Assembly: GCF_039522665.1 (NCBI RefSeq)
Contig: NZ_BAAADV010000007.1
Coordinates: 186,001-250,000, forward strand
Direction of reading: 5' to 3'
From: Natronoarchaeum mannanilyticum
Lineage (GTDB): Archaea; Halobacteriota; Halobacteria; Halobacteriales; Natronoarchaeaceae
DNA length: 64,000 nt
The notes under the pieces are model-generated. The model was given only the letters and a program-made list of their open reading frames with translations, was not told the origin of the DNA and did no database searches. Below are positions 11,564 to 28,691 of this stretch, piece by piece. The position numbers and the translations under genes are program-made. How positions within the stretch are numbered: position 1 is the first letter of the stretch; each line of letters begins with the position of its first letter.

Positions 11564-11645
11564 GGTGGGGTGGCAGAGCGGCCTATTGCGCCGGTCTTGA
11601 AAACCGGTGGCGTCAGCCTCATGGGTTCAAATCCCATCCCCACCG
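11564..11645 (+). tRNA. tRNA-Ser (anticodon UGA)
   Basis: Acceptor stem GGTGGGG/CCCCACC (11564-11570 and 11638-11644) with discriminator G. The anticodon stem CCGGT/ACCGG encloses loop CTTGAAA, with anticodon TGA at 11598-11600. A class II variable arm (GGC-GTCA-GCC) and T arm ATGGG/CCCAT with loop TTCAAAT complete the fold. No intron and no encoded CCA. The long variable arm confirms serine identity. Confidence 0.95.
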
Positions 11646-12085
11646 CCTTTTGCGAGGGTCTCGCGAACGGAGTGAGTGAGACATCGTGACGAGTGCAGCG
11701 AGTCACGGAAAACGGACGTGACGAGTAAAGCGTAGACGTTGGGATTTGAAGCAGGGAGTGGGAGGTGAGCGAGCGTAGCGAGCGAACGGGAACGACTGAG
11801 GTTCAAATCCCATCCCCACCGCCTTCTGCGACGAACGGACGTGAGAAGCGAAGCGTAGACGTGAGATTTGAGCCCTACCAGTCGCGCGCAGCGAACGTAG
11901 TGAGCGAGCACGTCTGGGTCCGGTTCAAATCCCATCCCCACCGTATTCTACCGCGAACGAACGGCGAGCACCTCGTGTGCTCGCCACTGTGAGCGGTGAA
12001 TCGCGGACGCTGGGATTTGAAGCACGCAATCGCGAGCGCAGCGAGCGGTTCCACCGGGGTCAAGCCCCCTCCCCGTCGCCGTATC
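11646..12085 (+). repeat. Decaying tandem units derived from the tRNA-Ser 3' end
   Basis: Downstream of tRNA-Ser the T-arm/acceptor 3' segment (GGTTCAAATCCCATCCCC and onwards) recurs at 11800-11831 (one mismatch over 32 nt), at 11922-11943 (exact over 22 nt) and, degenerate, at 12056-12080. Each copy is preceded by the inverted T-arm string GGGATTTGAA or a variant (11741-11750, 11863-11872, 12012-12021), so each unit can form a long-range hairpin. Purine-rich direct repeats (GAGCGAGCG, AGCGAGCGAA) fill the units. No acceptor 5' half or anticodon arm is present, so these are not extra tRNA genes. No integrase gene is adjacent. Confidence 0.8.
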
Positions 12086-27723: not shown

Positions 27724-27797
27724 GCCAGGGGAGCTTGGGCGGTTCAAGCACTCGACTTGTAATCGAGAATCCAGGGGTTCAAATCCCCTCCCTGGCT
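27724..27797 (+). tRNA. tRNA-Thr (anticodon UGU)
   Basis: Acceptor GCCAGGG/CCCTGGC (27724-27730, 27790-27796) with discriminator T, D arm GCTT/AAGC and anticodon stem CTCGA/TCGAG. Loop CTTGTAA has anticodon TGT at 27758-27760. The T arm is AGGGG/CCCCT with TTCAAAT. No intron, no encoded CCA. A 6-bp hairpin GTGCCC/GGGCAC (27803-27826) follows and may aid 3' processing or termination. Confidence 0.95.
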
Positions 27798-27836
27798 TCG
27801 ATGTGCCCGAGCGGACGCGAGGGCACGGCGAACCTT

Positions 27837-27920
27837 CGTGGGGATTTGAATCAGGGAGTGGGAGGTGAGCGAGCGGTAGCGAGCGAACGGGGACGACCGT
27901 GGTTCATCCCCTCTCTGGCT
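27837..27920 (+). repeat. tRNA-Thr-associated repeat unit sharing a cassette with the tRNA-Ser locus
   Basis: Begins with the inverted T-arm string GGGGATTTGAA (27840-27850) and ends with a degraded copy of the tRNA-Thr 3' end (27901-27920; two bases deleted and one changed relative to the gene). The stretch 27841-27898 is nearly the same as 11741-11797 behind tRNA-Ser (about four differences over about 58 nt), although the two tRNAs differ. The flanking base of each inverted arm matches its own tRNA. Confidence 0.8.
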
Positions 27921-28031
27921 CTCCTGTCCGAACGACCGCCCGACGCCGACCCTTCTCCAACTACTCGACGCCGACCCGGCGGCGACGCCGAACCGAGTGC
28001 GTTTTATCGACCCTCGGCGAACGTGCCCGGC

Positions 28032-28691
28032 GTGGAGAACGTAACAGACCGGACGAGCAACCCGTTCGGCATGCGACCGCCCTGTGAGGACGCCCGCGCG
28101 GCCGACGGCCCCGAGGCCGCGTTCGGCTACGGCGACGCCAACGCCGATTTCCACGTCATCGGCGACCATCCCGGCGTCCACGGCGGCCGACGGTCGGGGA
28201 TCCCGTTTACCGACTCGGTCGCCGGCGACAGGTTGCTGGACGTGTTGCGGAACGTTGGATTACTGGCGGACGCCGACGGCGAGCCCGAACCCTCGAACGT
28301 CTTCCTGAGCTACCTCTACATGTGTTGTCAGGCGGACGGCGAGTCTCCCACGGAGAGCGAGTACGCCGAACTCGAACCGTTCTTCGACGCCGAGCTCCGG
28401 GCGATCGCCGCGCACGTCCTGGTGCCCGTCGGCGAGCGCGCGACCGAGCACGTCCTCGAGAACTACACCGCGCAGGCCGAGCGGCTCGACCTCGACATGC
28501 GGGAGCTACACGCCGCCGAGATCAAAGGCAGCGGCTTTCTCGTCGTCCCGATCCGGGACCCGACCGAGTGGACCGACACGGACGCCGAGCGCCTCGACGC
28601 GCGGCTCCGCGCGATGCTCGCGGGCGACTACCGCCAGACGTCCGACCTCAGTCGGTTCCTGGTCGACGACGAGCGCTACATGGTCCGGTAG
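28032..28691 (+). CDS. Degenerate UDG-superfamily paralog
   Basis: 219 aa from GTG at 28032 (TTTTAT box 25-30 nt upstream). It is a full-length paralog of the protein at 9805: both begin with a short polar stretch then SNPFGM, and both share FTDSVAG/FTGDEPG, SNVFLSYL/SNAFLTYL, LVPVGERA and GDYRQT. Here the CxxC of the Fe-S cluster is reduced to one Cys (RPPCEDAR), the fourth cysteine is lost, and motif A reads GDHPGVHGGRRSG. It should lack the cluster and probably the glycosylase activity. Function unknown. Confidence 0.75.
   Translation: MENVTDRTSNPFGMRPPCEDARAADGPEAAFGYGDANADFHVIGDHPGVHGGRRSGIPFTDSVAGDRLLDVLRNVGLLADADGEPEPSNVFLSYLYMCCQADGESPTESEYAELEPFFDAELRAIAAHVLVPVGERATEHVLENYTAQAERLDLDMRELHAAEIKGSGFLVVPIRDPTEWTDTDAERLDARLRAMLAGDYRQTSDLSRFLVDDERYMVR

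Follow-up and report, generated by a model that had tools for sequence, protein, structure and literature searches.

Short hairpin units with tRNA-matched ends behind haloarchaeal tRNA genes, possibly a kind of non-autonomous mobile element

On the basis of sequence comparison, roughly one in two tRNA genes of the haloarchaea studied is followed by short non-coding units that carry copies of the 3' end of the adjoining tRNA gene. Each unit consists of a spacer (X), an inverted copy of part of the tRNA end (T'), a structured core and a direct copy, in this order. The unit may well be a short non-autonomous mobile hairpin of haloarchaea, resident at tRNA 3' ends; this reading has the most support of those considered and is judged to be about as likely as not. 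The anatomy of the units, their tRNA specificity, the precise empty sites, the tandem arrays and the pairing constraint on the cores were established by comparing sequences, as was the occurrence of the same cores and whole units at several tRNAs and in several species. By the same comparison, the case in the window (the stretch of 64,000 nt of Natronoarchaeum mannanilyticum DNA that was analysed, G000:C7:186001-250000, in a genome of 3.57 Mb) is one instance of a feature found across haloarchaea. No published description of such units was found in the open-access literature searched, and the newness of this kind of element is conditional on that scope.

Units in the window and their anatomy

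The window contains two tRNA genes, tRNA-Thr(TGT) and tRNA-Ser(TGA). The initial annotation had pointed to a near-identical cassette behind the two genes, with ends matched to each host, and both statements were borne out: the cassettes lie at the positions given there and, between T' and the GG ahead of the final T arm, differ by approximately four substitutions and one indel, and the inverted and direct copies at Thr and Ser each fit the 3' end of their own tRNA. The features are as follows.

27724..27797 (+), tRNA-Thr(TGT), with positions 54-73 at 27778-27797 (ARAGORN, Rfam, sequence)
27798..27839 (+), spacer X of the Thr unit (sequence, fold), with a hairpin, GTGCCC-GAGC-GGAC-GCGA-GGGCAC, at 27803-27826
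27840..27850 (+), T' of the Thr unit, GGGGATTTGAA, the inverted tRNA-Thr 54-64 (sequence, family profile)
27851..27902 (+), class I core of the Thr unit, TCAGGGAGTGGGAGG...CGACCGTGG (class assignment, covariation)
27903..27920 (+), direct copy of the Thr unit, TTCATCCCCTCTCTGGCT, tRNA-Thr 54-73 with a 2-nt deletion and one substitution
11564..11645 (+), tRNA-Ser(TGA), with positions 54-73 at 11626-11645
11646..11739 (+), spacer X of Ser unit 1
11740..11750 (+), T' of Ser unit 1, TGGGATTTGAA, the inverted tRNA-Ser end
11751..11801 (+), class I core of Ser unit 1
11802..11821 (+), direct copy of Ser unit 1, TTCAAATCCCATCCCCACCG, identical to tRNA-Ser 54-73
11822..11943 (+), Ser unit 2, with X at 11822-11862, T' at 11863-11872 (GAGATTTGAG), a class II core at 11873-11923 and a direct copy at 11924-11943 identical to tRNA-Ser 54-73
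11944..12078 (+), Ser unit 3, decayed, with X, T' (GGGATTTGAA) at 12012-12021, core and a degenerate direct copy near 12059-12078

At the Ser locus the units form an array that reaches approximately position 12078, and units 2 and 3 diverge more. Four copies of the window element were found in G000, with E-values between 2e-90 (itself) and 1.5e-14. Every copy follows a tRNA on the same strand at a distance of 45-100 nt; besides the two tRNAs of the window, these are tRNA-Val(TAC) and a tRNA at C1:5985 that contains an intron. Mechanical ORFs at 27735-28691 and 11627-11941 of the window span tRNA and hairpin units, and spurious protein annotation is possible at these places.

The borders of the tRNA-derived ends are well defined. 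T' corresponds to tRNA positions 54-63, with sharp edges in ungapped scoring, and the direct copy to positions 53-73, its end coinciding with the mature tRNA end; in gapped scoring, the inverted copy extends imperfectly, with bulges, over positions 64-73 (own vs permuted tRNAs, z 9.3). The tRNA adjoining a unit scored better than permuted tRNAs for the direct copy (z approximately 16) and for T' (z 6-8), and the same comparison on upstream regions gave no signal, in tests whose permutations leave the relatedness between species in place. The T arm of the tRNA, GTTCRAAT, forms the outer site. Where the T-stem strands are non-complementary (16 informative pairs), T' is the antisense of the 3' strand in 15/16 and matches the 5' strand in 0/16, the sixteenth pair fitting neither strand; because of this distribution, an arrangement of T' as the sense T-stem 5' strand with an inverted loop was ruled out. 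T' and the direct copy showed no compensatory pairing either: where tRNA and direct copy differ, T' agrees with the tRNA in 34 cases vs 2, and correction against the direct copy is therefore not visible in these data.

Spacer X often contains a hairpin of the form stem-GARC..GYGA-stem, which is enriched at occupied tRNAs (37/102 vs 15/134, Fisher p 6e-6). T-rich, terminator-like stretches lie directly 3' of the tRNA, ahead of the unit, and arrays reach five units. Another arrangement, type B, was observed at tRNA-Ala and tRNA-Arg-CCG, with an inverted copy of approximately 63-73, a direct copy from position 60 and a hairpin core like ACCCTYGCGAA..TTCGCTCAG. It occurs at loci L012, L013, L017 and L121 (in tandem at L121) and also within L005, L029, L047 and L051; elsewhere, type B elements are nested behind type A units.

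The cores fall into a few classes defined by fixed, non-complementary end motifs, namely CAGGGA..CGACCGTGG, CCCTG/A..TCCGG, CACG..CATCGGG and GTAGA..GCGTGG, and the inner stem between the motifs is variable yet complementary. In classes II-IV this complementarity was above all 200 permutations, whereas class I, in a small sample, gave 3.20 vs a permuted maximum of 3.40 in the same test. In a comparison of 57 different class I sequences gathered from many genomes, a two-base pair was found to covary in 52/57 (permuted mean 17.3, maximum 28). Of the two strands, the tRNA-sense strand forms the more stable fold in 122/151 units, by a mean of 4.2 kcal/mol, a difference that may be attributed to tandem G.A pairs on the sense strand.

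Distribution, empty sites and exchange of cores

The tRNA-by-tRNA study covered five genomes and 19 loci from other, named genomes, and a strict scan of the 257 tRNA genes gave 151 units. When the 43 tRNA loci of G000 were read by eye, the same architecture with differing cores was found at approximately 26. A strict script assigned units to 18/44 tRNA genes in G000, 22/46 in G001 (same genus), 24/44 in G003 (same family), 20/43 in G076 and 18/59 in G011 (both same order), counts of presence and absence that vary with the detection thresholds. A strict palindrome, GGATTYGAA-N25..55-TTCRAATCC, is present in 76/81 genomes of the order by hand count, with up to 23 per genome, vs 4/312 other genomes of the phylum; the backwards pattern, used as a control, matched once, in one genome outside the order. 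An exact palindrome is absent from five genomes of the order (G115, G135, G315, G341 and G402), where the copies may simply be degenerate. Relaxed palindromes were collected from three complete genomes, and for 61/73 a listed tRNA lies upstream at no more than 600 bp. Another two follow tRNA-Gln and tRNA-Trp genes absent from the tRNA list, which gives 63/73 on the tRNA strand. One (L253) is found past 13 nt of tRNA-Arg end that an integrated element has displaced; the other nine have no recognisable cores and look like chance.

A search with the core, as had been proposed in the initial annotation, gave 19 exact matches of AGGGAGYGGGAGGTGAGCGAGCG in the genomes of other species, 18 of them adjoining a tRNA 3' end, a result in favour of the annotation by its own criterion. 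The genera include Halorubrum, Halolamina, Halomarina, Halopenitus, Halogranum, Halorhabdus and others, and the haloarchaeal identity of the N. mannanilyticum genome agrees with them. T-arm copies flank the core on both sides in nearly all of the 18, with L054 having no clear direct copy, and in one of the 18 the core is inverted. The sole exception, at L055 position 3421, has neither tRNA nor T-arm copies beside the core. Phages and plasmids were searched with the window element and gave no matches; a single match on a viral contig (L105) falls in GC-rich sequence that has no T arms and was treated as unrelated.

Comparison of occupied and empty sites indicates gain or loss of whole units: the two states differ by exactly one unit plus a tRNA-end repeat of approximately 21 bp. 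At Val-GAC, G000 carries a unit and its sister species G001 an empty site, and the G000 flank past the direct copy aligns with the G001 flank past the tRNA (score 59, shuffled maximum 12). For Asp-GTC, L030 and L091 align from the first base, with 46/51 positions identical by hand count; in most other occupied/empty pairs the flanks are too diverged for alignment.

The cores behave in part independently of the rest of the unit, and they recur behind different tRNAs and in different species. Two identical tRNA-Asp genes of G000, 1.5 kb apart (L029, C2:28029; L030, C2:29616), are followed by units with 99% identical X and identical T', yet their cores belong to different classes, which makes this pair a natural case for tracing core replacement. 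Similar X and T' with differing cores are also found inside arrays at G003 Arg-CCT, G003 Ser-TGA (by reading) and G001 Leu-TAA. At the Lys-TTT, Arg-CCG and Arg-TCT genes of G076, the units have X 82-87% and cores 96-100% identical, and their tRNA-derived ends are different. The core is inverted between T' and direct copy at L058 and L011, and apparently at L221 and L233, and blocks of two units are tandemly duplicated at G076 Ser-TGA.

The initial annotation had suggested a non-autonomous element that copies or captures the tRNA end where it lands. The empty sites and the cores common to different tRNAs speak for a non-autonomous mobile element, while copying or capture on landing found no support. 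A long target duplication could account for the direct copy, as could a recombination site carried by the unit. Correction of the inverted copy against the direct one could then follow at a later stage.

Known systems and rival explanations

No system that was compared combines all features of the units, and the defining features of attC, MITE, SMR-A and REP did not hold for them. The nearest structural analogue is the attC site of integrons, an imperfect hairpin with a paired outer stem, an unpaired internal loop, a paired inner stem and a variable apex; integron cassette arrays are tandem, have strand polarity and grow at one fixed place. The units share these traits: fixed, non-complementary end motifs surround covarying inner stems, the inverted and direct tRNA ends form the outer stem, and the arrays are tandem, strand-polar and grow at one place. 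The outer core site of attC (GTTRRRY / RYYYAAC) was not found in the units, which have the T arm GTTCRAAT, and unlike integron cassettes, they contain no ORFs and their outer stem is of host tRNA sequence. A search of open-access papers on integrons and archaea gave no description of arrays of this kind.

The rtT RNA of E. coli tyrT (RF00391), known from one enterobacterial locus, consists of tandem repeats downstream of a tRNA, each opening with the tRNA 3' end. The units are likewise tandem downstream of a tRNA and repeat its 3' end; at the window, the Rfam model RF00391 scored 19.6 bits (E 0.42), below the cut-off of 45. REP and BIME sequences are also short extragenic palindromes in many copies, and they need a Y1-type enzyme, whereas the units are nested at tRNAs and the element-rich G003 has no Y1 match. 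The constant terminal inverted repeats of an autonomous transposon, which define MITEs, were not found, the inverted ends of the units varying with the tRNA.

The nearest described small mobile repeats are the SMR-A elements of Haloquadratum walsbyi, which are approximately 110 bp long and non-coding, with inverted ends, many copies, a strong target preference and an unexplained mobilisation (PMC3119063). They target palindromes of IS605-type elements or PATEs, have constant terminal repeats of their own and produce no target duplication (PMC3119063). The units resemble them in being small and non-coding with inverted ends and many haloarchaeal copies, but have tRNA-specific ends, the tRNA 3' end as target and approximately 21 bp repeated; insertion into IS605-type palindromes or PATEs without target duplication was not found. 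The direct repeat is most like the att sites of tyrosine integrases at tRNA genes (SNJ2, HF2-type proviruses), where a direct repeat of the tRNA 3' end flanks the insert (PMC8371274, PMC3119063). In the units, too, such a repeat bounds the insert and a matching empty site exists. They differ from integrase insertions in being approximately 100 nt long and gene-free, with an extra inverted copy, a structured core and tandem arrangement, and in occurring at approximately half of the tRNA genes.

The main rival explanation is a role at the level of RNA, which is considered unlikely: the unit would be a structured tRNA 3' trailer or terminator, with the match to the tRNA maintained by selection on RNA. 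T' and core would fold in a read-through transcript and would mask the surplus tRNA end, terminate transcription or control 3' processing. The orientation, fixed save for a few inversions, the stability of the sense strand (122/151), the covarying stems and the tracking of the tRNA sequence by T' would all fit such a role. It is opposed by the patchy presence of the units, including complete absence at orthologous tRNAs of a sister species, by the substitution of unrelated core classes for one another, by the terminator-like T-rich stretches that come right after the tRNA and ahead of the unit, and by the folding of the whole Thr and Ser loci of the window, which is no better than that of shuffled sequence. 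It is also possible, with a rather low probability, that the units are by-products of tRNA-targeting integrative elements, the direct copies being attR scars of lost proviruses or plasmids and the hairpin DNA having remained. Direct repeats of the tRNA 3' end are a hallmark of integrase insertion (PMC3119063, PMC8371274), and a 54.8-kb example is found at a tRNA-Arg of G076; random remnants would not be expected to have a uniform small size, conserved classes of core and inverted copies, or to be this frequent across the order.

An origin without any enzyme, by replication slippage and template switching at tRNA ends followed by homologous recombination between strains, is regarded as improbable. 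The tandemly duplicated two-unit blocks of G076 Ser-TGA and the imperfection of the inverted copies agree with it, but it leaves unexplained the same cores behind different tRNAs and in different genera, the fixed end motifs and the sharp borders at 54-63 and 73. Least credible is mobilisation of the palindromes by a Y1 transposase (IS200/IS605 or REP/RAYT). In its order the unit resembles the right end of IS200/IS605, where a guide is followed by a hairpin and a complementary target. This mechanism would not be expected to give a 21-bp direct copy, and it is disfavoured by G003, which is rich in elements and has no Y1 (PF01797) match. G115, which has no exact palindrome, has ten Y1 transposase matches, most with internal stops.

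A possible mechanism and its meaning for haloarchaeal genomes

If the units are mobile hairpins, they would be inserted by site-specific recombination at the left T-loop border (53|54). The incoming unit would bring a matching 54-73 and the old tRNA end would be shifted downstream; equivalently, the 21-bp tRNA end would be duplicated. With a crossover at 53|54 and a carried 54-73, the repeat would end exactly at 73, because the tRNA stays intact. T-loop borders have been discussed as cleavage sites of archaeal integrases (PMC8371274). The form recognised would be the hairpin (inverted end, core, direct end), which is stabler on the tRNA-sense strand; the orientation bias would also suit an RNA role. 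A new tRNA could be entered with few mismatches because seven of the ten T' bases belong to the near-universal T loop, and leftover mismatches could be removed by correction with the direct copy next to them. Part of the core exchange could be due to homologous recombination between arrays.

The enzyme would probably be a tyrosine recombinase from resident mobile elements, supplied in trans; this type is favoured by the distribution of tyrosine recombinases and Y1 transposases and by an integrated element at tRNA-Arg-TCG of G076. Matches to Phage_integrase (PF00589) were found in 13/13 genomes tested, counted for the family in general; integrases are ubiquitous and their presence therefore proves little. 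Neither an enzyme acting on the units nor a circle or a transposition event was observed, which counts against mobility. The integrated element at tRNA-Arg-TCG of G076, approximately 54.8 kb long, terminates in 13 nt that copy positions 61-73, and beside this copy a 371-aa integrase-like ORF coincides with a Phage_integrase match. Just past the end of this element is a hairpin unit, which the element separated from its tRNA. The sequence concerned is L253 8821-9936 and 9900-10100, in G076 near 1,221,300.

A further proposal is put forward as speculative and rather doubtful: haloarchaeal tRNA genes would serve as integron-like platforms, where folded single-stranded hairpins derived from the tRNA 3' end are the recombination sites, a tyrosine recombinase inserts, inverts and exchanges gene-free cassettes, and the tRNA sequence acts as the address label.

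If the mobility reading is true, the units represent a kind of element whose ends fit every target occupied, and the testable question becomes which enzyme is responsible and how the ends come to match. Comparison of the five palindrome-free genomes with their element-rich relatives could reveal the mobilising factor. The finding bears on the survival of tRNA genes as integration targets, on the plasticity of haloarchaeal genomes and possibly on tRNA 3' processing.
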